From NCBI RefSeq assembly GCF_036884655.1, contig NC_088330.1, positions 36,022,001 through 36,086,000 of the forward strand: a stretch of DNA of 64,000 nt, given 5' to 3'. Made by a program: the position numbers and the translations under genes. The stretch's first letter is position 1. The number at the start of each line of letters is the position of its first letter. The DNA comes from Musa acuminata AAA Group (lineage: Eukaryota > Streptophyta > Magnoliopsida > Zingiberales > Musaceae). Shown one piece after another: positions 9,948 through 64,000 of the stretch. Under the pieces are notes generated by a model that worked only from the letters and a program-made list of their open reading frames with translations, did no database searches and was not told the DNA's origin.

Positions 9948-10170
9948 GGAGTTGCTATTTCCCGGCCACGTGGTCGATGAGATAACGAGTGCGGCGGAGG
10001 CCGCCCATCTAAACCGCCGAGCGGGTCAATCTATTGCCAGGCCGGTACGGTCTTTCATGAGTCGTACCTCAATCAAACCCGCTAATTCCGGCCCGGTCCG
10101 GTCCGGTCCGGTCTTTGTGAAATGTCCTTGTCGAGGACATGCTCTTGAGGTAATAATAGGGAAGTAGAAT
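9948..10170 (-). promoter_or_regulatory. CYP28 upstream region with CCGGT repeats
   Basis: GC-rich sequence directly upstream of the CYP28 ATG, ending in a short tandem run of CCGGT units at about 10093-10113. It is presumably leader and proximal promoter. No clear TATA box is seen. Confidence 0.4.
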
Positions 10171-22966: not shown

Positions 22967-23957
22967 AAACACAAAAGAATTACCACTATACTCGTTAATA
23001 TCAATTTAGGGTATCTAATATATATATACATGGTTTGAGACCACATACTTCACAATACTAAGAACAAGAGTTGATTAGAGATATACTTGATAAGATCCAT
23101 TCCATATTCTGATTTAATTTAAAAAAATAATAATATAGAGTTAAAAGATTTGTGTATCAAAGATTTTATATAAATATATGGGTTTTTTATGAATAAAATA
23201 TTTAATTACTTACTTTTAGTTTATAATTATCCTATAATAAATATTTTCTTTGAATTGTCAAATGTTACTGAAGCATGAAAAATCATTTAAAATATCGAGA
23301 GCTAATAATGATATCACATGATAATTATGCATCCCACTAGGTCTTAGCGTGTAAGGTTGACTTGGCATCAAGTGGCACCCGAATATCCACATGTCATTAT
23401 TCATATATCAATATTTTATTAATATCTATAAAAACATAAAAAATAATTAATTAATTAGTAAATTTAATTTAATAAAACTATAATAATATTAATTAACTTG
23501 GTTTTATTGGATCGAAGTTAATTGAGGTGAAGTGACTTATATGAAAGATTTAAACGTTAATGAAACACACATATTACCTTACTACCTACATGTATCCCTA
23601 CTTAGTTTGTACGAATTTGTCTACCAGGAATCAATCAAGAAACGTTTTGAAGCTCAAATCATGGAGGGAGCTTCCTTTTGGACCATTGTTATTCCAAGTG
23701 GTGGCGCTAGGGTTCTACCTGAACACAAGTTGAAGCAAGAACCAAACTCTTCAGATTTGTTTGTGCCTTGAAGTCCTGGATTCTACTCCTCATTGCTGCC
23801 CAGTTCGATTCGGAACTTCTCCTCCTTCTGAATCAAAGTTCTTTTTTGCGCCAGCACTCCTCCAACTCTTCATCACCCTCGAAGAGAAGAGCCATCACTT
23901 TTGTTGCGATCCTGACGACTCGAGATCGACTACTGCAGTATTGGGATGCAGAGACTA
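22265..23957. other. GC-rich putative leader/promoter, then AT-rich filler
   Basis: 22265-22860 is CpG-rich with CT/GA-rich stretches, unlike the surrounding DNA. It may be the promoter and leader of the minus-strand candidate transcript. 22860-23950 is AT-rich with a (TA)n microsatellite and no supported gene. Confidence 0.4.
22925..22963. repeat. (TA)n microsatellite
   Basis: About 39 bases of pure TA repeat. Confidence 0.95.
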
Positions 23958-25104
23958 ATAGGATTGGCAAAGGTTTTCTTCCAATGGGTAATTACAAGGG
24001 AGAACACGTTTACGTTTCGTCCTTGGTTAATGACCTTCGTCTTGCCCGCGCAAGTAGGGAGCGAAGGAGCATCTACGTAAGCTCTTGAACAAAGACTTCA
24101 GTTCCAGACTTGGGCTTACAGCATCGAGACCGTCGCTCTTCCTCTTCACTGAGAGGCGAGCGAGATCGATCGGGACCCACTTTTAGAAGAGGTGGTGGGT
24201 CAAAAGATCGAACACCTGGTAGCTTCTTAGTCTCTTCGGGCGCCCGAACGAGCTCGTCCTCGCCGTCGATATGCCTAGACCAAACCCCACACTGGCGTCG
24301 TTGAGATCTGCGAAATGGTCATGATGGACGGCTACGAACAATCTGCAACGCGTGCGCATGGATGATAGGTTGCTCTCCGGTTAGCCATGACGAACGTCAC
24401 GTCGCGACGGTGACTGGCACGACTCTCACGGGCAAGGCAATAGATATGGATCTTATGCATCGCACGACTTAGACCACGACAGTTTGATATGGCTCGATGG
24501 TTAGGAGAGAGGAGAGAGGGGAGGGCGAATCGCGACTAAAGTTGCGGATAAGATACTATTCTGGTCTTGCGTCCTTATAGCTATGACGTACGTATAATGG
24601 AAGCAAGAGTGACGCAAGTGCCCACGACAAACATATTGCATGGTTTCGGACAAGAATAGCAGTAGTTGTTGTCAAGAACAACAAAAAGCGATTCCATTAA
24701 GTACGTCTTTTCTTCCGAAAGATTCTATTTCATCTCATGGAAGGAAAAAAGGAGAGGAGAAATGGCACCATAAAGTATAGAAGAATCCCAGGAGAAAAAG
24801 TGGTGGGAACAAAATAGCAGTCATAAAGGCAGAAGGGCAAAAATAATTGGGCAATTTATCAGAAAAGCCCATAGTATTAGGTTTTTATCAAATCATGCCC
24901 TTATATATGATTTTTTCTCAAGGAACACTTTTTTTTAAAAAAAAATTATAATAATTTTGAATCAAGCTATTTCAAACAAAAGATGGGTCGGTTCGATCCG
25001 AAATGAACGATTAGATCAGATCGAACTTTGTTAAATTTATGAGTAAGTGAAACTCGAGCGTAATTTTTTAGGATATTTTTATTAAATTAATCTATTCTTT
25101 TTTC

Positions 25105-26130
25105 CAAAACTATTAGTATATCATTTTAAAATATTTAATAATATTTTTATTATTTTAGGGTGAATAAAATTTCAAAAGAGTATTTTTAGATTGAATCGAT
25201 GATCAAATGTAATTAAATCTTCATCAAATTTATCTAAATTCTTCAGATCTACTAGGGTAAAATAGTAGTATATTTAGTATTTTTTATTTTTGTATAAATT
25301 TAGAACGAATAGGATATTCTTGGTTGAATATGTGATCGTGTGTGACTATTTGAATTTTCATTAATCCTATATAAACTTCTTTTGAACTACTATAGTGAGA
25401 TGTTAATTTATTATTATCACTTTTTCTATTTTCGTATGAATTTAGGGTGACTAAACTTTGAATAAGATATTTTATGTTTAATCTGTGATCGAGTATAACA
25501 CTTTAAATTTTTATCAAATTTATCCAAACTTGTTCTAAACTACTAGAATGAGATGCTAATACATATATTATTATTTTATTTATTTTATAAATTATATTTT
25601 TTTATTGAGTTTATGATTGAGTGTAACTCGAGTATAGTTTTTTGAATTTTCATCAAACATATCTAAACTTTCTTTGAACTATTAGAATAAGATATTAATA
25701 TACTATTGTCTTCTTTATTTAATTACGAATTTAAAATAATTAATTTTTAAGATATAATTTTTTATTAAATCTGTGATTTAGTATAATATTTGAATTTTCA
25801 TCAAACCTACCCAAACTTCTCTTAAACTACTAAGGTGACATGTAGTATTTATATATATATATAAATTTAGGATGATTAATTTGTGAAATATAGTATTTTT
25901 GTATTGAGTATGTGATGGAGAGTAGTTTGAGTTAATTTTAATTAAACCAATGCAACCTTCTCTAGAGCTATTGGCATGTGATTTTAAGATATATAGTATT
26001 ATTTTTTTAATTTCGTATAAGTTTAAGGTAATTAAGTTTTCGAATATGATTTTTTGGGTTGATTATATAATCAAGTTTAACTCAAATTAATTTTAACAAA
26101 TCAATATAAACTTATTTTGGAACTACTAGC
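25105..26130. repeat. Degenerate tandem array, period about 140-155 bp (unit A)
   Basis: A motif close to GAACTACTAGNGTGAGAT recurs at about 25109, 25249, 25386, 25538, 25678, 25826, 25968 and 26122. Between occurrences the order is constant: TTTTATTTTCGTATGAATTTAGGGTGA, a T-rich stretch, then a GTGATCGAGTGTAAC-like and a TTTTCATCAAA-like box. The copies are strongly diverged and AT-rich, like an old satellite-type array. It lies 1.5-2.5 kb upstream of the MIR156 hairpin. Confidence 0.8.
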
Positions 26131-27199
26131 ATATTATTATAAGATATTTAGCATAATTTTTCATATTTATGATGGATTAAGAATAAGTTTATATATATAT
26201 ATATATATTCTATGAATGAGTGTGACTCGAGTGTAATGATTTTTTGGTTAATTTAAGATAATTTTATAAAAATTAATATATTTTTAGGATAACTTGAGTT
26301 TTAGTTTTATTATAAATTAAAAAAAATTTATATAAAAATTAATATATTTTAAATATATTATGTGAATGAATGTAATATAATTATAACTTGAGTGCAATGA
26401 CTAATCTAAGTAAACTATAAGGAAGAGCAGGAGAGGAGGGAGGGACCAATTGGACGATGAGTATAATGAGGTGGAGAGAAGGGAGGGGAAGGAGGAGGAG
26501 GTAATGGTGGTTGAAGGATGAGGAGATAGAGTAGGAGGAAATTAAAGGGGATGAATAGTCGGATGATAATGGGATGAATAGTCGATAATATATGATTTAA
26601 AAAAATAAATACATAGAATTTTATTTTACTGATCTAGTTTGATTCATCTCAAGCAAATCGGTTCAGTCTAAATAACCAATAGTTATTCAGGATCAATAGG
26701 AATCGATTATATTTTTTTATTAATAAAATATATTTTGATAATAGTATTAAAAATATATATTTTGGTAAAAAAAAAACATGAGAACATCATATGATAAAAT
26801 TTTATTATTAAGATTTTTTGAAAATAAATTACTCAAAATAAAATTTTTTTTTCTTCTCTCGAGGGGTGAAAGGAAGAAAGAGACATTAAAGGACTCTCTA
26901 TTTCTTTGGAATATGCAAAGGGACACAAGATTCGATTGCAGCTTTTATTCTTTCTTTTCTAAAGTTTGTCACCACAGTTTAGTGCAAAAGTTTGAGAGCA
27001 ACGTTGTGAGCCACAAACATTCTAAATGGATGTTCGTTAATGGTTCTTGGGGTGCTTGTAAGCATAGCAACAATTTGATATAGGTGTGATTCATGGTCAT
27101 TCATCTTTATAATAATAGCTTGTAATTCAATGATTCTCCGTTCATGATTTGCATGATTGAACACCTTACTCAGAAGAAGGATTGGATACATAGTAAAAC

Positions 27200-27203
<4 letters not shown>

Positions 27204-27244
<41 letters not shown>
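27204..27244. repeat. (TA)n microsatellite (unit A)
   Basis: Pure TA run. The equivalent position in unit B (about 37978-38023) also carries a TA run. Confidence 0.95.
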
Positions 27245-27247
<3 letters not shown>

Positions 27248-27714
27248 GAAGTGTTCAAATAGACTTGGTAAAATTATATTTTAAATGTGCATCGGCATAA
27301 GTACTGTTTGGTAAAATTATATTTAAAAAGTCTATTAAATATTTTATAATAAATTTATCCTTTTAATATTTTAATATTATTTTAAAAATAAATACATATT
27401 TTTTATCACTAAAGAAATAAAATAAATAAATAAATAAAATGTTACCTTATAGAAAATATATATTATGGTAGTTTATCAATAAAATATTTTGATAATTTTT
27501 GAATTTTAGATAAAATCATAGAGTATTTTTAGAATTAAAAAAAGACATATTAATATCTCGTAAATGCTGAGTTTGCTATCATGAGATAACATCAATATTT
27601 GAATATTTTTAATATAATATTTAAAATAAATCTAATTTTTTTTAAAAAATATATTAAATATCAATTTACATTGATCTGAATGATTATTCAAATATATTTA
27701 TAAGTTAATGCTAA

Positions 27715-27760
27715 TCGCTCCTCCAATCCCGCACCCCTCCCTCTATTTAGGACGTGGACA
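27715..27760 (+). promoter_or_regulatory. Candidate core promoter of MIR156 copy A
   Basis: CTCCCTCTATTTAGGACGTGG around 27738-27757 is conserved between both duplication units and marks a sharp change from AT-rich to GC-rich, conserved sequence. CTATTTAG could serve as a TATA-type element about 180 bases before the hairpin. Inference from conservation and position only. Confidence 0.4.
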
Positions 27761-27922
27761 GCCACAGTGATCGGAGGCGCCAGGGGTGGGGGGGTGGGGT
27801 GTGTGGGAGGGGAGGTGCGGTGGAGACAGTAGAGGGAGACGGAGAAGGGGATGCAATTTCGAGGGGTGGATTGCACATGGCTGTGGACAATAAAGGGATG
27901 AGGGGTTTGAGATGGGATGCGA

Positions 27923-28028
27923 AGCGAAGCAGGTTGACAGAAGAGAGTGAGCACCCGCCGGAGGTAAATGGCATGACAGGGTGCTGTTTCCGTTGCGTGC
28001 TCAAATCTCTTGTTGTCAACCTTTCGCT
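27923..28028 (+). ncRNA. MIR156: MIR156 precursor hairpin, copy A
   Basis: The 20-base TGACAGAAGAGAGTGAGCAC at 27935-27954 is identical to canonical plant miR156. The opposite arm (about 27998-28021, GTGCTCAAATCTCTTG then TTGTCAACC) pairs with it. The 8-base block GGTTGACA, an AAGAGA block and a TGAGCAC block are matched, with two small bulges between them. The lower stem extends with AGCGAA at 27923 pairing TTCGCT at 28023, giving a continuous precursor of about 106 nt with the mature form on the 5' arm, as in known MIR156 genes. miR156 guides AGO1 cleavage and translational repression of SPL transcription-factor mRNAs, holding the juvenile phase. No other strong hairpin was seen nearby. Star-strand sequence is unusually mismatched compared with common MIR156 stars. 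Confidence 0.92.
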
Positions 28029-29690
28029 GTTATTTCTTCTGTGATCATACTTGGAAATACGCTCCCCTCCCCACCCGAGAAGAGAGAGAGGGAGAAAGAG
28101 AGTCATTGAACCTGTCTCACCCACCCCCCGAGGCTGTCTTTTACTTGTGTGTTTCGGCTGCCGCGTTGCGATGTTTTTGCTTTGCTTCGCCGTCTGTCTT
28201 ATCGTATCTGCCAATCAGCTCGTCGGATTTGTGTGGGTGAAGAAGCGCGTGCTTAATTGCCTCTCTGGTTTTCTCTCTCTCTCTTTTCATTAATGCTTAT
28301 ATTGCTCTAGAAATTGGGAAATTGTAAGAATAAGCGTGTCTGTTGAAAAGGGAGGTAAGAGAGAGAGAGACAGAGAGAGAGAGAGAAAGAGAGAGGGAGG
28401 GAAGAGGGAGTAGTATTGTCCGTCTCTGTCCTGTTAGTAATGAAGCCTCTGAGAGAGAGAGAGAGAATAGAAAGAGTACAGTACTACACATTGAAGCACG
28501 CGGTGCCGCCTCATCGGAAGGCACTGTTTGACCAATTCTACTCTCCTTCTCGGTGTTCTCCTATCTTTTCTGTCGTCCTTCTTGCTTTTGCTTTCCGCTC
28601 CTCTACTTTTCTCTTGCCTGTTGCGGATAGGGTTTGGAGCGTTTCAACAAAACATGGATTCAAGCTGTGAGGATCCGTGGAGTGAAGGTGCTCCCCGAGG
28701 TTCATGCCCACCATCGTCCATTCCTGGCCATCTAACTGTGTTTTCTTTCGTTTGCGCTCGAGACCATTTCCTCACCCCCTTGATGGGCTGTTGCTTTGCC
28801 AACTTGAACAAAGACTCGCTGCTCGTAAGCATCTCTGCTTTCTGCCTTCTTCTTTGCTGCTTGTTTCCCTTTTAAGACCATCTTATCACACAAAGATTCC
28901 ATGTTTTTGCATTATTTTAGAGATAGAAAAGTTTCTTGGTTCGGACGATGAGATTTTTACTTCTTTCTTTCCTGTGTGTGTGTGTGTGTGTTTTTTTTTT
29001 TTTGCTGCTTGTCTTTTCTTTGCTTGATGATGTTTGGTGCTGAGTCCGTGTTTAGGAATCATGGCTAGTATTAACAGCCTTCATGTTTGTTCTTCTCCAT
29101 GAGCCAGCGACGAGCGGAAAGGGGTGAGCTTTGTTGCCCTTCCCCATGCCTGATCGATTCATCTCTACTAGCTTTTGTGGAAAGAAGCCAATGAATCATC
29201 GCTGGTATCTCTCTGGTGCACTCAATCTCTCCATCTAGCTTCTGTTGTTTTTATCTTTGCTAGGTTGGTGGTGGTGGTCACTTGCCCCTTCGTTGCCGTG
29301 GTTTATATGCCGCATCCGTCATTCGCCCTTCCTCCTCCCACCTCTCCCTCTCTTCAATCTGGCACGACATGCCAAAAAGGAAAAAGGGAACATACCATAG
29401 AGGGTCTTGTGCATCTGTTGTTTTCCCCCGCTCCACAAGTTGTTCAGAAGATGGTACTTCCGATCGTGGTCCACCGTTCATCATACACCACTCATGTGCT
29501 TCACCATTGTTTGTCGAATGATTTCTTAGAAAACGATCGATCATTGAAGAAGATGAAGTATTTTTATCCAAATTCTCCCTCTAAACATAGAGAGGGTATT
29601 TTCATAATTTTGAATCATGATTTTTCATGTTACAGAAAGAGGAATCTTATCATTGTACATACAAAGCCTGCCCTTACCAATTTAGTATAA
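28029..29690 (+). other. Conserved region downstream of MIR156 copy A (probable primary transcript)
   Basis: This GC/CT-rich stretch is conserved in unit B. It holds GA repeats (about 28360-28400 and 28450-28466) and a TG run near 28974-28992. An ATG at 28654 opens a short frame (MDSSCEDPW...) that is kept in three copies across the window. No known protein domain is visible. The best reading is the body and introns of a pri-miR156 transcript. Confidence 0.5.
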
Positions 29691-30627
29691 TGAACCCACT
29701 GCAACAAATAATACTTTTAGCAGCGGTTTTTATTTATATATCCTTGCAATTTTAACTGTAGCAAACTCTATTCCTGCAGTTAGTTAGAAACAGTGGCAGT
29801 AGGTGCCATCGCCAAAAGATATTACTACGATTTTTACGACCGCAGGTAAACGCCTACATGTATGTTACTGTGGTGATTCAACCTCAATAATATATTTTTT
29901 TTTCCTACAAATAAAAACCATATTAATAGATATATGACAAACACTGTAATAGTTTAGTTATTACTGTAATTGTTCAACTACAATAATAGATACTTTTATC
30001 CTAAAGAAGGATAGTCACATTAATAATTCATATATTTATGCTACTATTCAATTACATAAATAAATACTTTAATCCAATGAATAACCATCCACAACAACAG
30101 TACATACTAACTACAACAGTAATTCATGATTTACAAAAAGGAATATAATATTCTTCTAATAACCATATCAATTGATATAAAAATACATTCAATTTCATAC
30201 GTAAATGCAAACAAACAACCTTTCTTTTGAAAGTTTTGAGTAGGATAATATAAAAAAAAAATTACAAAAGAGATGCTTCTCTTGCACTTCTCTCAAAGTC
30301 TGAAACCTGCATAGGGTGAATAATATTAATTAGATTCATAATTATAAATAATAAAAAAAAGATAAAAGAAGTTTTAGATTTTACTTATATTATTTGTTCG
30401 AGGAGTTTTCTCATCCACAAGTATTTATAATTGAGTTTGCATTTCTTTCGAGTATTTTTTTTCAAGTTTTTTCCTTCAGTTGTCGTATTTCTTTATCTTT
30501 CTCATTCTCATACCGTATAGTCATAGATATTAAAGAATAATATTTAGATACTACAAAATCCAAAGGAGATGGTCCTATCGCATATATCTTGATTTCTTTG
30601 GTTTGAATATTTGATAAACGATATCTT

Positions 30628-31450
30628 TGTTGATCTTGATAGGAAGAAGAAATAGAGCTATCAAAAAGAGGAAGAGTGAGACAAGCTTCGATCTTCTATA
30701 TTTCTCTCAAGAAAGCTCTTTACAATTTCAAAAACTCTATCTGTTTCATGACGCAATATTTGGGGTTTATATAGTTCCCAAATATATGTTACATTAATTA
30801 TATTCAAAATAAATCATTCTCTTTAAGAAATCCTTTCAAAAATCAATAACCAATTTGACTTGTCTTTTCATAGACATTTAATCTATTTTTTTTTCTTGGT
30901 ATAACGAATCTTCCTCTTGTTGTAATGAACATTTCTTTTGACAAAATTAATCTCTTTATGATACTTGAATAGGTTTAATTCCAACATTCTCCCCCCTTAA
31001 CTTGTTCCATCTAACATACCAAGTTTCTTTCGAAGTTGTTGAAATATTTTAAATTTAAGAGGTTTTGTAAGTATATTGATAACTTGTTCACTTGTCTTGA
31101 CATGATGTAGTTCCATTTCTTTATTTTTGATATGATCTCTTATGAAATGAAATCTTATGTCGATATGCTTCGATCTTTCATGGTAGATTAGATTCTTGGC
31201 TAAGGCAATAGCTGATTTATTATTAACATAAATCTTGGTTGACTTCTCATATGACATATGAAGTTCTTGGAGTAATCTTCTTAGCCAGATTGCATGACAT
31301 ATACTAGAAGAAACTACTATATATTATGCTTCACAACTTGATAGAGCAACGATCCATTGCTTTTTTGAAGACCAAGTAAATATAGCTTCACCAAAATAAA
31401 ATACAAATCCATTTGTACTCTTCCGAACATCGTAGCTTCCTGCCCAATCA
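30628..31450 (-). mobile_element. Truncated Ty1/copia fragment: LTR plus RNase H end
   Basis: On the minus strand this holds the 3' part of a copia polyprotein (31449 down to about 30997) followed by a complete LTR at 30628-30986. Readable residues include STKIYVNNKSAIALAKN, HERSKHIDIRFHFIRDHI and TKPLKFKIFQQLRKKLG, the RNase H C-terminus. It is the same family as the full element in unit B but in the opposite orientation. Its other end is cut at about 31450, at SDW in the RNase H domain. The remaining empty site is recognisable by comparison with unit B, around GATATCTTT. Confidence 0.85.
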
Positions 31451-31730
31451 TGTTGGTGTCAACAACCTGAAGCCGTGGCCTCGGGGCCAACACGGTTGGG
31501 TTCGGGTCCGAATGATTGGGGATTTTCCTGAGCGACCCTCGAGACTGTTGAGGTGACCGACTGCGGTGGTTCGATCGCGACGGGACGACTGTTTCCTCTA
31601 GAAGGGAACTCCTCGCTTGGGCACGCGGTGGGAGGTGCTCCGTCTTCGTCCCTGCACACAGGTCGGGTCGGGAGGCTCGACCCGACCTCTTCGACGATCA
31701 AGTCAGTTGATGGTCACAGGGGGTTTTTAT
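31450..31730. other. Isolated GC-rich insert of unknown origin
   Basis: A block of about 280 bases, far more GC-rich than its surroundings, starts exactly where the copia fragment is truncated (TGTTGGTGTCAACAACC) and ends near CAGGGGGTTTTTATATTATG. The 16-base string TATATTATGCTTCACA lies at its end and also at 31320 inside the copia fragment. It looks like part of another LTR or a transposon junction. No gene is supported in it. Confidence 0.45.
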
Positions 31731-34480
31731 ATTATGCTTCACAATTTTTTTTATAGTTATTAATGGTACCGAGTGATGAAGCATTTTTCTCGAAACGATC
31801 TATCGATGGTCGTAGATGATAAAACATTCATAATATAATGTTAATGATAGTGAATAATGAAACTCTTCCTCATGCATTATTGGCATTGATGATAGTGAAG
31901 GAAAAACCCTCTCTCTATTGTTATATCGATATTAAGATATAAAAATATAGAGAGAAAATAAAAGATAATCACATAGCTAGAGATGCTGCTTTCCACATAT
32001 TTTTTTGCAACGGTAATTTCATTTTTTTTTGTAGCGATCGGACTCTAATAATATGATAGTTTTCTTGTGCTAAAAGATTGTGAACTTAATGTGAAGAATG
32101 GAAGAAATCACATGCAAGTACAGTCCTTTCTCAAATAATAGTAATTAGGTACTACTACTAGCCTAAGATCAAACCAAATAAAAGAATAAGGAACCAAGGA
32201 GAAAAGAAAAATTATATTAAACTTCTTAAAAAGAAAACACTTACGGATCTTGAATTACTCTTGAACTTTAGTTTTATAGACATAAACACTTAGATTTGGA
32301 TAGATCTATAAGTAGATGTCATCTATTTATAGGTGTGAGATACAATTTAAACCAAAAGTCTCGTATTCCTATAACTCTATTTAATCAACTTATTTAAAAT
32401 ATAAGATAATAATTTAAGATCTTTCATAATATATATTTTAACTTTTAACACTTAAGGTAGAACATTAAGTGAGATTGATTTGATTTTGGATCTTGTTGCA
32501 TAAGCTCATTTTAGGATATCAAAATCTATATTTATGGGGTGTGGGTAAAATATTTTGATTGTTAGGGCAATCTACCCAACATGCTTGAATACTCCAACCT
32601 TGTAACATCAAGCAATTAGGGTTGTGTCGCCTTTATTAAGGTCTGAACATACGCTTTCAAATGAATTATACCAATCACCTTTATTTTTATTTTTATATTA
32701 TTTTTATACTTAAGGGCCTAAAAAATAAAGTTGTAACTAAAAAATATAGAAAATGATTAAATTAATAAAAATATATTCTTTTTATGATGTGAGATTATAT
32801 TATTTTTTCAATTATATGAATTTTTTCATCCATATAAGAGATGTGCTAAGGTATGGGATCTTCATCGTCGCAATCAATCTTTGAACTAAAATGAGTCCCT
32901 TTTTTTAATTCCACAACTATGAATCTCCAAATAAATAATTTTTTTGTCCATCAGACCTTTGCCCTATACGGCCTTTGGAAAAGAATTTATGCTATATCAT
33001 ATTAGGGACAAAATAACTTGTCCTAGATCACTCCATTTTGACAATTTCCTAGACGGGATCATGCTTATTGAGTATCCAGAAAGGCACCATATAATGTATT
33101 TTATTCGTGACTGTAACCTTGATTTCAGATCTTTTCATGTTTTGTCCATATTTTGCTCTGAATATTGGATTGCCGCTTAGAATTGCTATGATCTCATTGT
33201 TAACATGATCATCTTTAGGTTACCCCAACATTAAATTTAGACTAACTTAATATGCACAAAGTCAGATTTTTGACATGTACATTAGGTTTGAACTGCGTTA
33301 GCAATGGAATACAACCTATCATCAGTTTTTATCATTAGTAATGACATATATACATTAGTTTACATGTGCCTTTGTAATGATATGTACATTATTAGTGTAT
33401 GATAGTTCTTCATTGGCAAATTTTCTGTTTGTGGATTATGTAAAGGAGTCCCCACTTGATGATTTGATGTTGACAACGTTTGTCTGACCGAGCTTTGTAT
33501 ACAAATTTGGGACCTAACTTTGAGCTTTTAAAGCAAAACTGTCAAAATTCAGGAAGTGGTAATATATACAACTCTTTACTCTATGATCAACAACTCTCCT
33601 AGATGCCCATTACTATCTCACCACACTACAATAGGCTTCTTGTATTCCTCAAACTTTTCACTCGAGATATCAAATTCTTGTTGATTTGGGAGTATGACAT
33701 TATCATGATTGAAATTTTAATGCAAGTATTAGTAGTGGAATAAATACTAGTCATTTTCACTAGTATACAACTTCTTAGAGAAAAAAACTATTATCCTGAC
33801 ATGGTCATAGGCTTTGAGGCAAATCTTTGACATATAAAAATAGTATGTGACTGTGTTCCAAGGGATATGGGCTGTTGATTAGTTTTAGGAAGAGGAAGAG
33901 TGTCCCAAGAGATATGCCATAACATTTGTTGCACTATTGTAGCTAGGAACTGCAGCTACTTTTGGCTTTGAGGCATTATTATGAACCTTGATTAAGGACT
34001 CAACAGATATTTAGTGGCAATGACTAGAACTTTGTAGGGTTAAATTAGAGCAGATGCTATAAGAATAACAAAAGGATTTGAGTCCTCATGTAACAATCTT
34101 TTGATCTAGAGGGTTAGAGCTATGTAGATTAAAGCTTCCTAAATCCTATATCGGTAGAAGTTCATGCATTAGATCACCTCTTTCTTTTCTTTTTTTAAAT
34201 CAACCCCGAATAGTTGCAATATCATGACTTGTTGTTGTGTACAATAGTAGCAACTGTTGTTTATATTTTGAGGAAATAAATAGACTTGCGATAAATTATA
34301 GCGATCACTGAAGCGAAAATCTGAGTAAGAAAAAGATGTAATGTCAGCGGCAACGCTTGTAGGATTGACAAAGAATCTTCACTGATAATAGGCTGCACAA
34401 TTGGGATCAATGCGATTGACCAGAGTAGTTCAAGATTAGTCAATAAAGGTATATATGAAATGATAAATTGGTATCAAATT
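31731..34480. other. Unit A-specific DNA without recognisable gene
   Basis: This AT-rich stretch has no counterpart in unit B, where the flanks are joined by other sequence (46160-46500). I see no supported coding frame. Part of it (about 32100-32460) has the look of a decayed LTR, but I could not find its pair. Confidence 0.35.
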
Positions 34481-35345
34481 TTATTTGGTTACTCTTAGTA
34501 AAGTATTAATTGTCAAATAAATTTAGTTGCGTTTGGTTCTTGTGCTATAAAAGATATATTAATTATACATCATAACTTGCAGGTAGTGATCTCATAGTAC
34601 TGTGTTTTATGCAACTGCATTTGCCAATGGGCTTATCTGTTTTTTCTCAATATATGGAGACAGGTTTATACTTGCATTTATTTAAATTGCAACCATATAT
34701 ATTTTTTATTTATGTTGCCTTTTGTCATTGTTGTCATGCATCAAAGTGGCGTGGTTTGCAAAAGACAGCTTACAACATAGAGAGGGAGAGGGAGAAAGAG
34801 ATGATGACGCATTTCACTCGGTGCAAAGTTCTTACATAGACCTTTTTGTACCTAAATGTTGGATGGCAAAGTGACACTAAATTGCAATCGTTTTGATGGC
34901 TTTGTGGATTTAGAGAGTTTGTTTTATTTCTTATAATCTTCAATATTTCCTATACGATCACGACCTTCCTATTCGAATCTTTTAATTGAAATTTCTTTTG
35001 TTGTTTTCTACTATTCTCTTAAAGTCTTACATTCAACTCTTTATGAATGGTAAAGAATTTTTATTTATCGATAAGAGAGGATTGGTGGCAAAGTTCTCAA
35101 GAATAATATAGAATGGATTTAGGTTGTAAATATTTTGTTTTTTTTTCTTATTTATTGCATGTTATTTGCAGCATAAAAGCTGTTCTATATTGTCTTGAAC
35201 TTTATTTGGTTGCTGTTGCCATGTGGATTAATTGCCAATTAAATTAGATTTCGTTTGGTTATTGTCTTAAAGGATATATATACCGCATGTAGTGATCACA
35301 CACACAATGTTGTGTTATGTGCAACTGCATTTGTTGGTGGCCTAA
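34480..35345. repeat. Local partial duplication
   Basis: Sequence at about 34485-34640 (TTATTTGGTT...GCAACTGCATTTG) is a diverged copy of 35205-35335. The second copy is the one shared with unit B (46905-47035). So a small duplication occurred inside the right end of unit A. Confidence 0.6.
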
Positions 35346-36744
35346 TACTACTTTAAAAATATATAAATCAACAGAGACAGAAGAGAAGAGGAGAAATCGA
35401 ATCAGATTCTTCTCCTCGCATCTATTTCTCGTTATCACAAGAAAAGAAGATTGGTAAGAGCAACTCTTGGATACTGCAATGTTAACAATTTATTTTTTTT
35501 ATTTGTAATTATGTTGGTTTTGTTTGTTCCATTTTTCATATCATTATATTGATGACACAATTCTTCACTGTTCCATGTCAATGACAAAATTGTAAAGACT
35601 CAATTATTTAGGATTAGCTATGCTCCCCTTCGTATGAGAAATAGGATCGGCAAAGGTTTTCTTCCAATGGTTAATTACAAGGGAGAACACGTTTACGTTT
35701 CGTCCTTGGTTAATGACCTTCGTCTTGCCCGCGCAAGTAGGGAGCGAAGGAGCATCGACGTAAGCTCTTGAACAAAGACTTCAGTTCCAGACTTGGGCTT
35801 ACGGCATCGAGTCCGTCGCTCTTCCTCTTCACCGAGAGGCGAGCGAGATCGATCGGGACCCACTTTTAGAAGAGGTGGTGGGTCACAAGATCGAACACCT
35901 GATAGCTTCTTAGTCTCTTCGGTCGCCCGTACGAGCTCGTCCTCGCCGTCGATATGCTTAGGCCAAAACCCACACCGGCGTCGTTGAGATCTGCGAAATG
36001 GTCATGATGGACGGCTACGAACAGTCTGCAACTCGTGCGCATGGATGACAGGTTGCTCTTGGGTTGGTCGTGACGAACGTCGCGTTGGCACGGTGAATGG
36101 CGCCACTCTCACGGGCAAGGCAATAGATATATTTCTGATGCAACTCACGAATTTGGCCACGAAAGTTTGATGTGACTCGATGGTTAGGAGAGAGGACAGA
36201 GGAGGGGAGGGCCGAATCGCGACTAAAGTTGCGGATAAGATATTATTCTGGTCTTGCGTCCATAAAGCTTTGACGTACGTGTACTGGAAGCAAGAGTGAT
36301 GCCGGTATCCAAACCAGCATTTGTTTGTCAAGAACAACAAAAGCGATTCGATTAAGTACATCCTATTCTTCCGAAAGATTCTGTTTCATCTGTGGGGAAA
36401 CAAAGGAGAGAAGAAAAGGCACCATAAAGTATGGAAGAATGCAGGGAGAAAAAACGGTGGGAACAAAACGGCACCCATAAAGGCAAAGCTAATTGGATAA
36501 TTTATCAGAAAAGCTGAAAGTATTGGGCATGCCCCAATATATGATAACTTTTTTTTCAAGGGATATATTTTTTAAATAATAATATTTTTGAATTAGGTTA
36601 TTTCAAGCCATATAGATAGATCGATTTGGCCCAATACGGACGATTTGGATTTGATCAAGTTAGATTTTGTTGAATTTAGGAGCAAATGTATCTCAAGTGT
36701 GATCAATATATTTTATTCAAATCAATCCAAATTTCTCCAAAATT

Positions 36745-37630
36745 ATTAGTATATCATTTTAAAGTATTTAATATTATTTTTTTTTATTTTATGATTTTAG
36801 GGTGAATAAAATTTTAAAGAGAGTATTTTTTGGGTGAATCGAATGCAATTAAATCTTCGTCAAATTTATCTAAAGTTCTTCGGATCTACTAAAGTAAAAT
36901 AGTAATATACTTAGTATCATTTTCTAATTTTCAAATAGAAAATTTGAATATGTGATCGTGTGAACCTCTCTTCAATTTTCCTTAAATCTATCCAAATTTA
37001 TCCTGAACTACTAGAGTGAAGATGTTAATATATTGCTATCACTTATAATATTTTGGTATGAATTTAGGGTGATTAAGCTTTGAAATAAGATATTTTATGT
37101 CTAATTTATGATTGAGTATAATGCTTTAAATTTTTATCAAATTTATCCAAACTTATCTTGAATTACTAGAGTGAGATGCTAATATAATAATAATAATAAT
37201 AATAATTTAGGATAATTAATTTTTAAAATTTATATTATATTTTTATATTGAGGTTATGATCAAGTGTAACCGGAGTATAGCTCTTTGAATTTTCATCAAA
37301 CCTATAAACTATCCTGAACTACTAGGGCAAGAAATTAATATGTTATTATCACTTTTTTAATATGAATTTAGAATAATTAATTTTTAAGATATAATATTTT
37401 TTTTATTAAATCTGTGATCTAGTATAATCTTTAAATTTTTATTAAACTTACCCAAACTTCTCTTAAACTATTAGGGTGAGATATAATATATTTATTTTTT
37501 ATTTATATATAAATTTAGGATGAATAGTTTTTTTAAATAGTATTTTTGTGTTGAATATGTGATCTAGAATAGTTTGAGTATAATTAGAGTTAATTTTAAT
37601 CAAACCAATGCAACATTTTCCAAAACTACT
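36745..37630. repeat. Degenerate tandem array, period about 125-160 bp (unit B)
   Basis: The same anchor motif as in unit A recurs at about 36748, 36885, 37006, 37163, 37316, 37466 and 37624. The array therefore predates the duplication of the MIR156 locus. Confidence 0.75.
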
Positions 37631-37964
37631 AGCATGTGATTTTAAGACATAGTATTATTTTTTCTGCTTTCTTATAAGTTTAGGATAATTTAGTTTTCAA
37701 ATATGAAAATTTTGGATTGATTATGCAATTGAGTTGAACTCAAGTTAATTTTTAACAAATCAATTCAAACTTTTTTCCAACTTTTAGAACATTATTATGC
37801 TGTGAATTTTTTTAACCTCTTGGGATTATTTGGTGGGTTCTATTTTATTTCATTTAACATTATTTAATATTTATATAATTTTTTATTTAAAAAAGGAAAG
37901 ATATTATCATGTCAATGGGACCCATCATATTGTCAACCTACCTTGATCGGTATCACTAAATCAA

Positions 37965-37968
37965 TATA

Positions 37969-38023
<55 letters not shown>
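37965..38023. repeat. (TA)n microsatellite (unit B)
   Basis: TA run with one TATG unit near its start, at the position equivalent to the unit A microsatellite. Confidence 0.95.
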
Positions 38024-38025
<2 letters not shown>

Positions 38026-38344
38026 AATATATTTGTATAAATAAATATATAAAAATATTTTTTTTAAAAATAAATAAAAATTTATCTTATAAAAAATATA
38101 AATCATCGCAGTTATCACTAAATCATTTTGATAATTTTAGATAAAATCATAAAGTACTTTTTGAATAAAAAAAATATATTAATATCTCGTAAATAATGAG
38201 ATGATAATACTATCTTACGATAATATTAGTATTTAAGTATTTTTTTAATATAATATTTAAATTAAATATGATTTAAAAAATTATTGAATACTAATTTACA
38301 TTGATCTCAATAAGCATTTCAAATATATTTCTAAATTAATACTA

Positions 38345-38390
38345 ATCGCTCCTCTAATCCCGCACCCCTCCCTCTATTTAGGACGTGGAC
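38345..38390 (+). promoter_or_regulatory. Candidate core promoter of MIR156 copy B
   Basis: CTCCCTCTATTTAGGACGTGG is retained here (about 38368-38388), about 130 bases before the hairpin. Like copy A, it marks the start of the conserved GC-richer stretch. Confidence 0.4.
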
Positions 38391-38510
38391 AGCTACACAG
38401 TGTGATAGGAGGGGGCGGTGGAGAAAGTAGGGGGAGAGGGATATGGGAAGGGGATGTAATCTCGAGGGGTGGATTGCACTTGGCATGACGGGGTTTGAGA
38501 AGGGATGCGA

Positions 38511-38616
38511 AGCGAAGCAGGTTGACAGGAGAGAGTGAGCACACGCCGGGGGTAAATGGCATGACGGGGTGCTGTTTCCGTTGCGTGCTCAAATCTCTTG
38601 TTGTCAACCTTTCGCT
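38511..38616 (+). ncRNA. MIR156: MIR156 precursor hairpin, copy B (variant mature sequence)
   Basis: The mature-position sequence is TGACAGGAGAGAGTGAGCAC (38523-38542), which differs from canonical miR156 only by A to G at position 7. The 3' arm (GTGCTCAAATCTCTTG...TTGTCAACC) and the lower stem (AGCGAA at 38511, TTCGCT at 38611) are unchanged from copy A. The G can still pair with U in the star arm, so the hairpin should fold. Against normal SPL target sites position 7 would form a G:U wobble inside the seed, which could weaken or alter targeting. Loop bases also changed slightly. Preservation of both arms argues that the precursor is still functional; expression is not shown by sequence. Confidence 0.85.
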
Positions 38617-39133
38617 GTTATTTCTTCTGTGATCATACTTGAAAATGCGCTCCCCTCCCACCGGAGAAGAGAGAGAGAGAGAGAGGGAGGTGGAGAAAGA
38701 GAGTGATTGAACGTGTCTAACGAGGCTGCCTTTTACTTCGTCAGTGTTTCGGCGGCCGCGTTGCGATGTTTTGCTTTGCTTCGCTTCGCTGTCAGTCATA
38801 TCCTATCTGCCTATCAGCTCGACGGATTTGCGTGGGTGAAGAAGCGCGTGCTTAATTGCCTCTCCGGTTTTCGCTCTTTCCTTTCATTAATGCTTATAAA
38901 GTTCTAGAAATTGGGAAATTGTAGGAATAATCGCGTCTGTTGAAAAGGGAAGTAAGAGAGAGAGAGAGAGAGCGATGGATGAGGGAGTGGTATTGTCCGT
39001 CTCTGCCCTGTTTGTAATGAAGCCGGAGAGAGAGAATAAAAAGAGTACAGTACTACACCTTGAAGCAGGCTGTGCCGCCTCACCGGAAGACACTGTTTGA
39101 CCAATTCCACTCTCCTTCTTGGTGTTCTCCCAT
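38617..39133 (+). other. Conserved region downstream of MIR156 copy B
   Basis: Matches unit A (28029-28570) including the GA repeats and the sequence around GAGTACAGTACTACAC. Probable pri-miRNA body. No coding gene is seen. Confidence 0.45.
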
Positions 39134-40389
39134 CTTTTCTGTCGTCCTTCTTGCTGGCTTTCCTTTCCTTTCCATGTCTGTTGCCTGTTTCGGATAGGGT
39201 TTGGAGCGTTTCAACAAAACATGGATTCAAGCTGTGAGGATCCGTGGAGAGAAGGTGCTCCCGGAGGTTCATGTCCACCATCGTCCATTCCCGACCATCA
39301 CACTGTTTTTTCTTTCGTTTGCGCTCGAGACCATTTCCTCACCACCTTGATGGGCTGTTGCTTTGTCAACTTGAACAAAGACTCACTCGCTGCTCTCGCC
39401 ACGACTCGTAAGCATCCCTGCTTTCATCCTTCTTCTTTGCTGGTTATTTCCCTTTTAAGACCATCTTATCACACAAAGATTCCATATTTTCGTATGATTT
39501 TAGAGAAAGAAATGTTTCTTGGTTCGGACAATGAGATTTTTTTTTCTTTCTCTCGTTCTTTCCTGTGTTTTATTTTTTTTGGCTGCTTGTCTTTTCTTTG
39601 CTTGATGATATTTGGTGACGATAATGGCAATTTTTTGAGTGGTTGAGTCCGTGATTAGGAATCATGGCTAGTATTAACAGCCTTCATGTTTGTTCTTCTA
39701 CATGAGCCAGCGACGAGCGGAAAGAGGTGAGCTTTGTTGCCCTTCCCCATGCCTGATCGATTCATCTCGACTAGCTTTTGTGGAAAGAAGCCAATGAATC
39801 ATCGCTGGTATCTGTCAGGTACACTTAATCTCCATCTAGCTTTTGTTGCTTTAATCTTTGCTAGGTTTGTGGTGGTGGTCACTTTGCTCCATCATTGCTG
39901 TGGTTTGTATGTCGCATTTTCTGTCGTCCTTCTTGCTTTTGCTTTCCTCTCCTTTCCTTTTCTCTTGCCTGTTGCGGATAGGGTTTGGAGCGTTTCAACA
40001 AAACATGGATTCAAGCTGTGAGGATCCGTGGAGAGAAGGTGCTCCCCGAGGTTCATGCCCACCATCGTCCATTCCTGGCCATCTAACTGTGTTTTCTTTC
40101 GTTTGCGCTCGAGACCATTTCCTCACCACCTTGATGGGCTGTTACTTTGCCAACTTGAACAAAGACTCGCTGCTCGTAAGCATCTCTGCTTTCTGCCTTC
40201 TTCTTTGCGGCTTGTTTCCCTTTTAAGACCATCTTATCACACAAGGATTCCATATTTTTGCATTATTTTAGAGAGAGAAAAGTTTCTTGGTTCGGACGAT
40301 GAGATTTTTACTTCTTTCTTTCATTCCTGTGTGTGTGTGTTTGTTTTTGCTGCTTGTCTTTTCTTTGCTTGATGATGTTTGGTGCTGAG

Positions 40390-40743
40390 TGTTGGAAGTA
40401 AACTTGTTCAAGTATCATAAGAGAGGTTCATTTCATCAAAAGAAAGGTTTATTGCATAAGGAGGGATATTCATTACATCAAGAAGAAAAAATGGATTAAT
40501 ATGCTATAAAAGAATAAGTCAAATTGGTTATTGGTTCGGTTTCTTAAAAGATAATGATTCATCTTGAATACAATTAATGTAATGTATCTTTGGAGACTAT
40601 ATAAATCCCATATGTTGGGTCATGAAATAGAGAGTTTTTTTAAATTGTAAAGAGTTTTTCTTGAGAGAAATATAGAAGATTTAAGCTTGTCCTACTCTTC
40701 CTTTATTTGATATCTCTATCCCCTCTTCCTATCAAGTTCAACA
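40390..40743 (+). repeat. 5' LTR of the copia element
   Basis: 354 bp with TG...CA ends (TGTTGG...TTCAACA). It contains a segment of about 60 bases that the 3' LTR lacks, so the LTRs have diverged by an indel as well as substitutions. Confidence 0.93.
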
Positions 40744-40745
40744 TT

Positions 40746-40757
40746 TGGTATCAGAGC
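40746..40757 (+). other. Primer-binding site, initiator tRNA-Met
   Basis: TGGTATCAGAGC two bases after the 5' LTR, the usual minus-strand primer site of plant copia elements. Confidence 0.9.
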
Positions 40758-40769
40758 ATAGGTTAAGCT

Positions 40770-41732
40770 ATGACCTCTTCCTCAAGTGACATCTAACTCT
40801 AGATCCCCAGATTGATAAAAAATAATTATGACATATGGTGCATCCAAATGAAGGTTCTTCTAGGCTCCCAAGATGTATAGGAGTTTGTAAAAGATGGATT
40901 TGCTGAACCAAGTCCAGCAGAAGAAGGAGCAATGAATGCAGAAGGAAGAAAACAACTCAAAGAAAGAAGGATGAGAGAGAAAAAGGCTTTGTTCATGATC
41001 TACCAAGGGTTTGATGATTCACTATTCGAGATCATCGCTCTAGCAAATACTTCAAAGGAGGCTCGGGAAATACTTCAAAAGGCATTTGGTGGTGTTGATA
41101 AGGTAAAGAAACTTTGTCTACAAATTTTACGAGCCGAGTTTGAAAAATTACAATAAGGTACTTCTGAAACTATTTCTGATTACTTCTCAAAAATCATTTC
41201 TATTATTCATCAAATGAGACGAAATGGTGAACAAATAAATGATCAGAGAGTAATAGAAAAAATATTGAGATCTCTAGATTAGAAATTTGATTTTATTGCT
41301 GTTGCGATTGAAGAATCTAAAGATTTGAAAAAAATGTCTTTAGAAGAACTTATGGGTTCCCTTCAAGTTCATGAACAAAGGATTACAAAAAGAGAAGAAG
41401 ACAAAACTATGGAGCAAGCACTACAAGCTAAGTTTGCTCTTGAAAATAAAGGAGAATCAAATTCTCAAAGAGGAAGAGGACGAGAACAAAGAGGAAGAGG
41501 AGTCAAAAATCAGACCAACCAAGAATCTCCAAACAATGAAAATGTTGGAGAAAATTCTAGCCAAAGAGGCCGAGGTTATGGTCGAGGACGTGGCCGAGGC
41601 CGTGGATGTGGTAGAAACTCTAAAAGATCTGAAATACAATGCTATATTTATAAAAGGTATGAATATTACTCTTATGAATGTTATTATAATCCTAACAATC
41701 AAGGTGATAAGATAAATTTTGTTGAGGAATAA
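40770..41732 (+). pseudogene. Copia gag remnant
   Basis: The frame starting MTSSSSDI stops at once (TAA at about 40791). Further stops lie at the junction near 41155 and 41280. Recognisable parts are the UBN2-type capsid region (SLFEIIALANTSKEAREIL...AFGGVDKVKKL), a coiled stretch (MKKMSLEELMGSLQVHEQRI), an Arg/Gly-rich region (41460-41620) and a zinc knuckle reduced to CYIYKRYEYYSYECYY, where the second Cys and the His are lost. Gag cannot be made intact from this copy. Confidence 0.85.
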
Positions 41733-41750
41733 AAAAACGAAAATCAAGTT

Positions 41751-44700
41751 TTGCTAATGAGTTATGATAATTTGAAAGAGGATCAGTCTATGGCATGGTA
41801 TCTAGATACAAGAGCCTCAAATCACAGGTGTGGCATCAAAGAATTATTTTCAGAAATGGATACAAGTTATTCCGGGAACATTACATTTAGTGATTTGTCT
41901 CAAAGACCAGTAAGAGGCAAAGGTAAAATTCTCCTTGAACATAATAATGGCAAGGAATTATACATTTCATATGTTTATTATGTTCCTGATATGAAAATTA
42001 ATGTTCTAATCTTGGGATAATTACTTGAAAAAGGTTATGATATTGAGATGAAAGATATGACTCTCTCAATTCGTGATAAGAATAAAACATTGATATCACA
42101 TGTGAAAATGGTAAAGAATAGAATGTTTCCTCTGCATTTAAGTATTTTTGATCAATCAAATTATTTTAAAGCTGATATTGAGGATATTTCTATACTTTGA
42201 CATCTTAGATATGCTCACTTAAATTTTGAGGCTTTGAAACTTCTAGAGAAGTATAATATGGTGACAGGAATGCCAAAAATTGATCGCCCATCAAAATTAT
42301 GTGAAGTATGTGTGATGGGTAAATAAGAAAGAAAGCCTTTTAAAGTGAGAAGACCAAAAAGAGCATGACATCGACTTGATCTGGTACACTCAGATGTTTG
42401 TGGCCTTATCAATCCAGTATCACTTGGAGGAAGCAGGTATTTTCTTACCTTCACCGATGATCATAGTGGCAAAACTTGGGTTTACATGTTAAAAGAAAAG
42501 AAAGAAGTTTTAAGCAAATTCAAAGAATTTAAGGATTTGGTTGAAAGACAAAGTTATTGTAAGATTAAATGTTTAAGAACAAATAGGGCTGGTGAATATA
42601 TATCAAATGAATTTAAAAGTTTTTATAGAAATAATGGAATTCTACATCAATTCACCATGCCATACACACCTCAACAAAATGGTGTCTTAGAAAGAAAAAA
42701 AAAGATTATCCTTAATATGGTCCGATGCATATTAAAGGAAAGAAAAATTCCGAAAGAATTTTGGGGTGATGCTGTTGCTTGTGCAGTTTATTTGCTTAAC
42801 AGGTTTCCGACAAAGCGAATTTGTAATGTTACACCAGAAGAAGTATGAAGCTTATAAAAACCAAGAGTTGATCATTTGAGGATTTTTGGAAGTATTGCAT
42901 TTGCCAAGATACCAGAAGAAAAGAGAACAAAATTGGAGGATAAAAGTCAGAAATGCATTTTGCTAGGTTATCCAGAGAATTCCAATGGTTACAAACTCTA
43001 CAATCCTATCACAAATAAAGTTGTGATGTCAAGAGATGTTGAGTTTGATGAACAATAGATTTGGAATTGAAAAAATGATGAGCAGTATAAGAAAGCTACA
43101 ACTTCAGAAGAAGATGATATAATACAAGCAAGCACCAAAGTGGCTTTGCTGGAATCATCACCTAGATCGGCTAGGTCACATGATTCAAGAAGTCCAATTA
43201 TAAGAAGGACAAGGCCGATTCATATTCTATATGATGTGACTCGAAGGATTGATACTAACAATGATGAACTTTCTTTATTTTGTTTTTTTGCAGGATATGA
43301 TCCATTAACCTTCGAAGAAGCTTATAGAGATGAAAAATGACGACAAGCTATGAATGAAGAGATTCATACAATTAACAAAAATAATACATGGGAGCTTACT
43401 ACACTTCCAAAAGACCACCAAGCTATTGATGTTAAGTGGATCATCAAAACAAAAAGAAATACAAAAGGATAGGTGGAGAAATACAAGGCCAGATTAGTTG
43501 CAAAGGGATATAAACAACAATATGAGATTGACTATGAAGAAGTATTTACGCTAGTTGCTCGATTGGAGACAGTAAGATTACTTATCTCTCTAGCAGCTCA
43601 AATGAAATAAATTTTTTTACAAATGGATGTCAAATCAGTATTTCTTAATGGAGTTCTTGAAGAAGAGGTATATATTCAACAACCCGATGGTTTTATTATT
43701 CATGAACAAGAACACAAAGTATACGAGTTAAAGAGAACTTTTTATTGGCTTAAACAAGCCCCACGAGCATGGAATTTTCGAATAGATGCTTATTTTATTC
43801 AAAATGGTTTTTCTAAATGTCCACATGAACATGCTTTCTATACAAAATCTAACTCTAATGGAGATATCTTGTTTGTATGTCTGTACGTAGATGATTTAAT
43901 ATTTATAGGCAATAGTAGCTCTATGATTAAAGATTTTAAGTACTCTATGAAAAAGGAGTTTGAGATGATTGATTTGGGCTTAATGACTTATTTCCTTGGT
44001 ATCGAAGTTACACAAGATAATGGAGGAATTATTATCTCACAAGAAAATTATGCAAAGGAGGCTTTAAAGAAGTTTTCTATGGAAGATTGTCATCCTACAG
44101 ATACACCTGTTGAATATGGCACAAGTTGACTAAGGAAGGTGAAGGTAAATACATTAATCCAACTTATTATAAAAGTCTAGTTGGATGTTTAAGGTATTTG
44201 ACATGCACTCGACCTGATATACTATTTGGAGTTGGTTTAATAAGTAGATATATGGAAGTTCCTAAGACATCTCATTTAAATATCACTAAAAGAATTTTAC
44301 GATATATTAAAGGAATAATTAAGTATGGAATGTTCTATACATCATCTAAAAAGTTGGAGCTTATTGGATATAGTAACAGTGATTGGGCCGAAAGCTACGA
44401 TGATCGGAAGAGTACAACTGGATTTATATTTTATTTTGGTGAAGCTATATTCACTTGGTCTTCAAAAAAACAATGGATCGTTGCTCTATCAAGTTGTGAA
44501 GCAGAATATATAGCAGCTTCTTCTAGTGTTTGTCATGCAATCTGGCTAAGAAGATTACTCCAAGAACTTCATATGCCACAGGAGAAGTCAACCAAGATTT
44601 ATGTTGATAACAAATCAGCTATTGCCTTAGCCAAGAATTCAGTTTATCATGAAAGATCGAAGCATATCGATACAAGATTTCATTTCATAAGAGATCATAT

Positions 44701-44820
44701 CAAAAATAAAAAGTGGAGCTACATCATGTCAAGACAAGTGAACAAGTGATTGATATACTTACAAAACCTCTCAAATTTAAAATATTTCAACAACTTCGAA
44801 TGAAACTTGGCATGCTAGAT
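41751..44820 (+). pseudogene. Copia pol remnant (protease, integrase, RT, RNase H)
   Basis: Recognisable in order: protease with DTRAS in place of the usual D-S/T-G-A active site (41800s); pre-integrase zinc motif (HLRYAHLNFEALKLL, LCEVCVMGK); integrase core with HSDVCG, FTDDHSGKTW and QQNGVLERK; reverse transcriptase with MDVKSVFLNGVLEEEVYIQ and YVDDLIFIG; RNase H with SDWAESYDDRKSTTGF, SSCEAEYIA and DNKSAIALAKN. In-frame stops occur at about 42018, 42198, 42325, 42366, 42846, 43056, 43338, 43470 and 43607. A frame change lies at about 44126-44129, and another near 44710. The RT YVDD box is intact but the polyprotein is not. Confidence 0.9.
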
Positions 44821-44830
44821 GGAACAAGTT

Positions 44831-44843
44831 TAAGAGGGGAGAA
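44831..44843 (+). other. Polypurine tract of the copia element
   Basis: AAGAGGGGAGAA directly before the 3' LTR, the plus-strand primer site. Confidence 0.8.
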
Positions 44844-45138
44844 TGTTGGAAGTAAACTTGTTCAAGTATCATAAAGAGGTTCATTTCATTAAAAGAAAGG
44901 TTCATTGCATCAAGAGGGAGATAAGTCAAATTGGTTATTGGTTCTTGAAAGAGAATAATTAATCTTGAATACAATTAATGTAATATATCTTTGGGGACTA
45001 TATAAACCCCATATGTTGGGTCATGAAAGTTTTCTGAAATTATAAAAAGTTTTTGTTGAGAGAAATATATAAGATTTAAGTTTGTCCTACTCTTCCTCTG
45101 TTTGATATTTTTATCCCCTCTTCCTATCAAGTTCAACA
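44844..45138 (+). repeat. 3' LTR of the copia element
   Basis: 295 bp, same ends as the 5' LTR, shorter by about 60 bases through an internal deletion. Confidence 0.93.
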
Positions 45139-45942
45139 CTGAGTCCGTGTTTAGGAATCATGGTTAGTATTAACAGCCTTCATGTTTGTTCTTCTCCATG
45201 AGCCAGCGACGAGCGGAAAGGGTTGAGCTTTGTTGCCCTTCCCCATGCCTGATCGATTCATCTGGACAAGCTTTTGTGGAAAGAAGCCAATGAATCATCG
45301 CTCGTATCTCTCAGGTGCACTTAATCTCTCCATCTAGCTTTTGTTGTTTTTATCTTTGCTAGGTTGGTGGTGGTGGTCACTTGCCCCATCTTTAGCTTTT
45401 GTTGTTTTCTCCCGCTCCACAAGTTGTTCGGAAGATGGTACTTCCGATCGTGGTCCACTGTTCATCATATGACAAACACTGTAATAGTTTAGTTATTACT
45501 GTAATTCTTCAACTACAATAATAGATACTTTTATCCTACAGAAGGATAATCACATTAATAATTCATATATTTATGCTACTATTAAATTACATAAATAAAT
45601 ACTTTAATCCAATGAATAACCATCCTCAACAACAGTACATACTAACTACAACAGTAATTCATGATTCACAAAAAAGAATATAATATTCTTCTATTAACCA
45701 TATCAATTGATATAAAAATACATTCAATTTCATATGTAAATGCAAACAAACAACCTTTCTTTCGAAAGTTTTGAGTAGGATAATATAAAAAAAAATTACA
45801 AAAGAGATGCTTCGCACTTCTCTCAAAGACTGACACCTGCATAGGGTGAATAATATTAATTAGATTCATAAATATAAATAAAAAAATCATAAGATAAAAG
45901 AAGTTTTAGATTTTACCTATATTATTTGTTCGAGGAGTTTTT

Positions 45943-46395
45943 TCATCCACAAGTATTTATAATTGAGTTTGTATTTCTTCCATATCTTGAGTATTTTTTT
46001 TCAAGTTTTTCCTTCAGTTGTCGAATTTCTTTATCTTTCTCATTCTCATACTGTGCAGCCATAGATATTAAATAATAATATTTGGATACTATTATTATTA
46101 AATAATAATATTTGGATAATATCACACATATCCTGATTTCTCTGGTTCGAATACTAGATAAATGATATCTTTACTTGAAGAAATATCAGCTGCTGCAAGT
46201 TCAGGATGTTGTGCCTTGAGATTCTTCATTTGTTCCTGTAATAAAAATAAATATATTCTTAATAAAAATTTAAACTTAAGAAAATAAACTAATAAGAACC
46301 ATAACAATAATGAAAAGATCGAGTGATACATACAATTACTTTTGTTGCATCCTCATCTTCTGGCATTTTATCATTTTTTCTTTCATAATAAAAAT
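45943..46395 (-). pseudogene. Remnant of a plant transposase-like gene (CACTA-type context)
   Basis: Minus-strand segments read DKMPEDEDATKV, then EQMKNLKAQHPELAAADISS, then AAQYENEKDKEIRQLKEKLE, separated by intron-like AT-rich gaps with possible splice sites. A charged coiled coil at the end of the protein is typical of plant Ptta/En/Spm transposases, and unit A carries the CACTA end beside the matching sequence. No DDE core is seen. The family call is inference. Confidence 0.4.
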
Positions 46396-63974: not shown

Positions 63975-64000
63975 GTAATATGCTTCGATCCCATGTATTT

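Follow-up and report, generated by a model that had tools for sequence, protein, structure and literature searches.

The 64,000-nucleotide (nt) stretch of Musa acuminata AAA Group analyzed here (contig NC_088330.1, positions 36,022,001 to 36,086,000; hereafter the window) very probably contains two MIR156 genes, the products of a local tandem duplication that took place long ago in Musa. miR156 is a plant microRNA (miRNA) that acts as a timer of the juvenile-to-adult change. The identification of both loci as tandemly duplicated MIR156 genes is supported, at the level of sequence, by the combination of the mature miRNA sequence, a stable hairpin and an Rfam covariance match, the last below the family's gathering score.

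Two hairpins of the miR156 family

Each 106-nt locus is predicted to fold into a low-energy single hairpin, as the first-pass annotation of this DNA had anticipated (Table 1). None of 200 dinucleotide shuffles was as stable for copy 1 (0/200) or for copy 2 (0/200), and both folds are unchanged after addition of 30, 60 or 100 nt of flank per side. In both copies the miRNA occupies the 5′ arm of the stable hairpin with few mismatches to the star strand (miRNA*), and the lower stem comprises 12 nt on the 5′ side of the predicted fold. Only two sites in the 64 kb match the miR156 20-mer with three mismatches or fewer, against a mean of 0.00 in 100 shuffles. The best Rfam family for both hairpins is RF00073 (MIR156), with 38 bits (E 2.9e-06) for copy 1 and 41.8 bits (E 2.7e-07) for copy 2 in 601-base searches.

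A mature miR156 had been assigned to each hairpin. This is exact for copy 1, which carries the canonical 20-mer, and has to be amended for copy 2, where position 7 is changed from A to G. The copies differ at four hairpin positions: mature position 7, the base following the mature end, one position of the upper stem and one of the loop. The canonical 20-mer appears in 180 papers; the G7 variant was not found in print with 20-mer and 17-mer queries, supplements being outside their scope. Upstream of the hairpins, the two promoter-like tracts differ by 1 mismatch in 52 columns.

Table 1. Features of the window (positions counted from its first nucleotide).
Feature	Position	Strand	Remarks
MIR156 hairpin, copy 1	27923..28028	+	106 nt; fold -53.8 kcal/mol, z -6.04
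MIR156 hairpin, copy 2	38511..38616	+	106 nt; fold -53.5 kcal/mol, z -5.92
Mature miR156, copy 1, 5′ arm	27935..27954	+	exact canonical 20-mer; ends placed by homology
miR156 variant, copy 2, A to G at position 7	38523..38542	+	27941 A vs 38529 G
Putative miR156*, copy 1	27999..28020	+	placed by 2-nt 3′ overhangs on the predicted fold
Putative miR156*, copy 2	38587..38608	+	placed likewise; same sequence as the copy 1 star
Promoter-like tract, copy 1	27711..27762	+	TATA-like CTATTTAG (27743-27750); promoter role putative
Promoter-like tract, copy 2	38342..38393	+	promoter role putative
Tandem unit 1	23957..35621	+	self-comparison
Tandem unit 2 (hybrid)	35640..47306	+	self-comparison
Part of unit 2 with lower divergence from unit 1 (28566-30628) than the upstream copy in unit 2	39917..46172	+	interrupted by the copia element
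Ty1/copia retrotransposon in unit 2	40390..45138	+	junctions, comparison of long terminal repeats; rve and RVT_2 domains (integrase core, reverse transcriptase)
73-codon frame downstream of the hairpins	28654, 40005; first 56 codons also 39221	+	three occurrences, 56 codons shared
CYP28-like cyclophilin	9123-10025	-	exon at 9.1-9.9 kb
Protein kinase	14907-15533	+	
Plastocyanin-like protein	53268-53666	-	
F-box match	63454-63978	+	just below the Pfam cut-off

History of the tandem units

The hairpins are spaced 10,588 bases apart on the + strand, and each lies with its flanks in one unit of a direct repeat, forming a tandem duplicate pair. This agrees with the earlier description of same-orientation hairpins about 10.6 kb apart in a direct duplication. 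The first homologous blocks are 23957-26140 and 35640-37798 (offset 11,683), and the final ones 34810-35621 and 46508-47306. Divergence, expressed as the Kimura distance (K2P) over aligned columns, reaches 0.165 in the 5′ block (0.139 over the first half of that block), 0.108 in the block with the hairpin and 0.104 in the tail; most blocks fall between 0.10 and 0.16. Just upstream of the hairpins, homology between 26140-27391 (1.25 kb) and 37798-38022 (0.22 kb) is not clear, these AT-rich sequences giving simple-repeat matches only.

Three stretches of unit 2 stand apart. The segments 39917-40390, 45139-45393 and 45467-46172 lie at K2P distances of 0.032, 0.044 and 0.075 from unit 1, and the copies of the first two that unit 2 holds further upstream (39135-39617 and 39644-39905) lie at 0.106 and 0.071. 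Because these stretches are nearer to unit 1 than unit 2's own upstream copies are, unit 2 reads as a hybrid, in which a 5′ part of its own is followed by a piece re-copied from sequence of the unit 1 type and then by a tail of older divergence. The re-copied piece begins about 730 bases upstream of the point where the first part of unit 2 stops. A third hairpin within it was considered and rejected: the piece begins at a position corresponding to 28566, which lies downstream of the hairpin, and the window holds only the two miR156 sites with three mismatches or fewer.

The Ty1/copia element of unit 2 is located in this re-copied piece, has stop-broken frames, and is flanked by a 5-bp target-site duplication (CTGAG) that corresponds to an empty site in unit 1. 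Its long terminal repeats (LTRs) differ by 0.086 (18 transitions and 6 transversions in 298 columns), which exceeds the 0.032-0.044 separating its flanks from the empty site and weighs against a straightforward sequence of events. The high LTR distance could stem from transition-rich decay of a methylated element. Unit 1 contains a related copia sequence in the opposite orientation (30628-31454).

Gene models from other Musa genomes bear on the age and integrity of the locus. The earlier statement that protein-coding frames reveal nothing of this needs a small correction, since Musa annotations put hypothetical proteins just downstream of the hairpins. The 73-codon frame found there is matched by three of four candidate database proteins at E up to 0.1, all from Musa: models of M. 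acuminata subsp. burmannicoides and subsp. malaccensis (98% identity over 78% of the query) and the Musa balbisiana model Mb04t27570, on chromosome 4 by its name (73% over 75%). A conserved peptide was nonetheless rejected. Copies 1 and 2 differ in the 56 shared codons by 5 synonymous and 7 non-synonymous-codon changes, the M. balbisiana model is 7 residues short, and the matches are confined to Musa. Coding is thus doubtful, and the frame is treated as annotation of sequence belonging to the primary miRNA transcript (pri-miRNA). An antisense frame of 155 aa over hairpin 1 was likewise dismissed, with matches in 0 of 83 candidates at E 0.001.

The burmannicoides model P0121 matches the window in three pieces, at 39749-39820, 39981-40175 and 45207-45290, in that order. 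Its first piece is identical in both units, and the unit 1 equivalents of the first two pieces occur in reverse order, so the model fits the hybrid arrangement of unit 2 only. The M. balbisiana model P0123 is 83% identical to the 5′ (copy 2) lineage of unit 2, and 73% and 71% to the other two copies. The A and B genomes of Musa are reported to differ by one homozygous single-nucleotide polymorphism per 23.1 bp (PMC3852598). Since the best fit of P0123 is to the copy 2 lineage and the blocks, at 0.10-0.16, diverge well beyond the A/B difference, the duplication appears older than the A/B split, as judged from short annotated protein fragments and not from the hairpins of those species. Tandem repeats are often mis-assembled, and the pair could in principle be a recent copy-number variant or an artefact of collapsed or mis-joined haplotypes. 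This explanation is very improbable and was rejected in the main, given the divergence of most blocks, the different transposon content of the units and an independent M. acuminata gene model collinear only with hybrid unit 2.

Conservation of the hairpins and role of the second copy

When 27431-29294 is aligned with 38071-39905, mismatches occupy 4 of the 106 hairpin columns, none of which is gapped, and 172 of 1644 columns elsewhere, where a further 199 columns contain gaps (one-sided Fisher p = 0.013). The copies are identical over a stretch of 75 nt (27979-28053) that takes in the star arm, the lower stem on the 3′ side and 25 bases past the hairpin (P = 0.02 for a run of at least 75 under uniform breaks). 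The first-pass description of conserved hairpins in diverged surroundings therefore holds on average, but the pattern is not unique to them. The longest identical run between the units is another one, of 85 nt (23989-24073), the hairpin run being second. Windows of 106 columns with at most 4 differing columns number 142 of 1844, and only 62 lie around the hairpin; the other 80 fall in two clusters starting at 28614-28619 and 29039-29112.

The two probabilities hint at the selection on the RNA that had been proposed, and purifying selection on the hairpin is plausible from the alignment. As other tracts are equally conserved, gene conversion or crossing-over between the units could account for the low hairpin divergence as well, and the chance that it does so in place of purifying selection falls a little short of even. 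Conversion would fit the patchy conservation, such as that of the 400-base tract 23957-24356 (94-98%), the apparent origin of the 3′ portion of unit 2 by re-copying of unit 1-type sequence, and the extension of the identical run beyond the hairpin. Conversely, miR156 is conserved across land plants, so that constraint on copy 1 is expected regardless of the pair, and two of the four hairpin differences fall in the upper stem and loop. The 400-base tract is an observation in its own right. It stands at the unit heads (23957-24356 and 35640-36039), is gap-free, retains its identity in each 100 columns at the level of the hairpin, and is unexplained; no frame is open across it and its unit 1 copy has no Rfam match up to E 0.1.

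Several further points count against two functional MIR156 genes of Musa origin. Neither hairpin attains the RF00073 gathering score of 62 bits, and no match emerged when the window in full was scanned at Rfam gathering cut-offs; the loop and some of the star arm depart from the family consensus, which may account for the low scores. As described, other tracts of the unit equal the hairpin in conservation. The best 120 of 358 matches to the neighboring CYP28-like gene include no Musa protein, so that the assignment to the genus depends on the Ensete match of that gene and on the three Musa models of the 73-codon frame; together these place the window in Musaceae, most probably in Musa. Finally, the substitution in copy 2 falls in the seed, and the sequence downstream of its hairpin is broken by the copia element after about 1.8 kb. 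These last two features would also suit a history in which copy 1 is the working gene and copy 2, decaying or silenced, contributes scarcely any miR156 or none at all, as would the change of CCAAT at 27723-27727 to CTAAT and the indels between the TATA-like tract and the hairpin (32, 1, 5 and 15 columns). Yet the star arm, lower stem and fold of copy 2 are kept although neighboring sequence has diverged by about 0.11, and the A to G change retains the option of a G:U pair in the stem. Decay of copy 2 is a real possibility, against which we lean.

If instead both genes of the old duplication work, they would follow the known pathway. Transcription of the pri-miRNA would start near the conserved TATA-like tract, DCL1 processing would release the 20-nt miR156 from the 5′ arm, and AGO1 guided by it would repress SPL mRNAs. 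Copy 1 would supply the canonical miRNA and copy 2, if expressed, the G7 variant, whose pairing to the canonical SPL site should survive with a single G:U wobble. Against the sequence we take to be that site, copy 1 has a plant mismatch score of 1 and copy 2 a score of 2, with duplex energies of -33.0 and -32.5 kcal/mol, respectively. Owing to the single wobble and these shifts in score and energy, SPL targeting by the variant would probably persist, somewhat weakened. It is very unlikely that selection has maintained the variant as a miR156 with weaker activity or other targets, which would give two functionally different miR156 species from one Musa locus.

The banana miR156 family is reported to have twelve members, and 40 of 58 SPL genes are predicted targets (PMC11720309). 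One more copy need not noticeably change dosage in a family already of this size, to which the tandem pair would add modestly at most. Any effect on phase change through higher dosage, as the first-pass annotation proposed, is hypothetical. What the pair documents is the origin of two banana miR156 family members through old tandem duplication, re-copying between units and transposon insertion. Its importance would be greater only with an expressed variant copy that had targets of its own.

Related MIR156 systems and neighboring genes

Tandem MIR156 genes are already known, and the banana pair is of the same kind, more diverged than its rice counterpart. In rice, a direct tandem duplication of 13,002 bp holds OsMTD1 and MIR156f and has reported effects on tiller number and leaf angle (PMC7905320). 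Like the banana duplication, which is similar in size, it places one MIR156 gene in each unit. However, the rice duplication is recent, identical between copies in Nipponbare and polymorphic (13/230 cultivars; PMC7905320), whereas most banana blocks differ by 10-16% and the mature sequences are distinct. The rice unit also carries a second gene, OsMTD1 (PMC7905320); none was recognized in the banana units, where Pfam was applied to four frames only (two copia, two without match).

Maize MIR156b/c is the Corngrass1 locus. Its two genes are in tandem on one strand, 198 nt apart (PMC2773440), and rice MIR156b/c and h/j are tandem clusters as well (PMC4409300). Cg1 is described as a miR156 over-expresser, and one reference title concerns a tandem microRNA (PMC2773440, PMC4409300). 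These maize and rice clusters share the tandem arrangement with the banana pair, but they lie within one transcript or gene (PMC2773440, PMC4409300), in contrast to banana hairpins that are 10.6 kb apart and have separate promoter-like tracts. Date palm offers a likeness of another sort. Four MIR156 pairs keep pre-miRNA similarities of 87-97%, and, as in banana, the pre-miRNA is retained while the flanks have diverged by insertions and deletions; the date palm pairs are on different contigs, unlike the tandem banana pair (PMC3738527). A report of this tandem pair in Musa was not recognized in the listed part of the literature searches or in passages of banana papers, including PMC6329063, PMC11720309, PMC3852598 and PMC13165380, and a supplementary table of banana MIR156 positions may exist.

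Outside the tandem units, the window contains the four flanking genes or gene matches of Table 1. The CYP28 exon shares 89% identity with a protein of Ensete ventricosum, followed in order of E-value by two ginger-family proteins at 74% and 71%.

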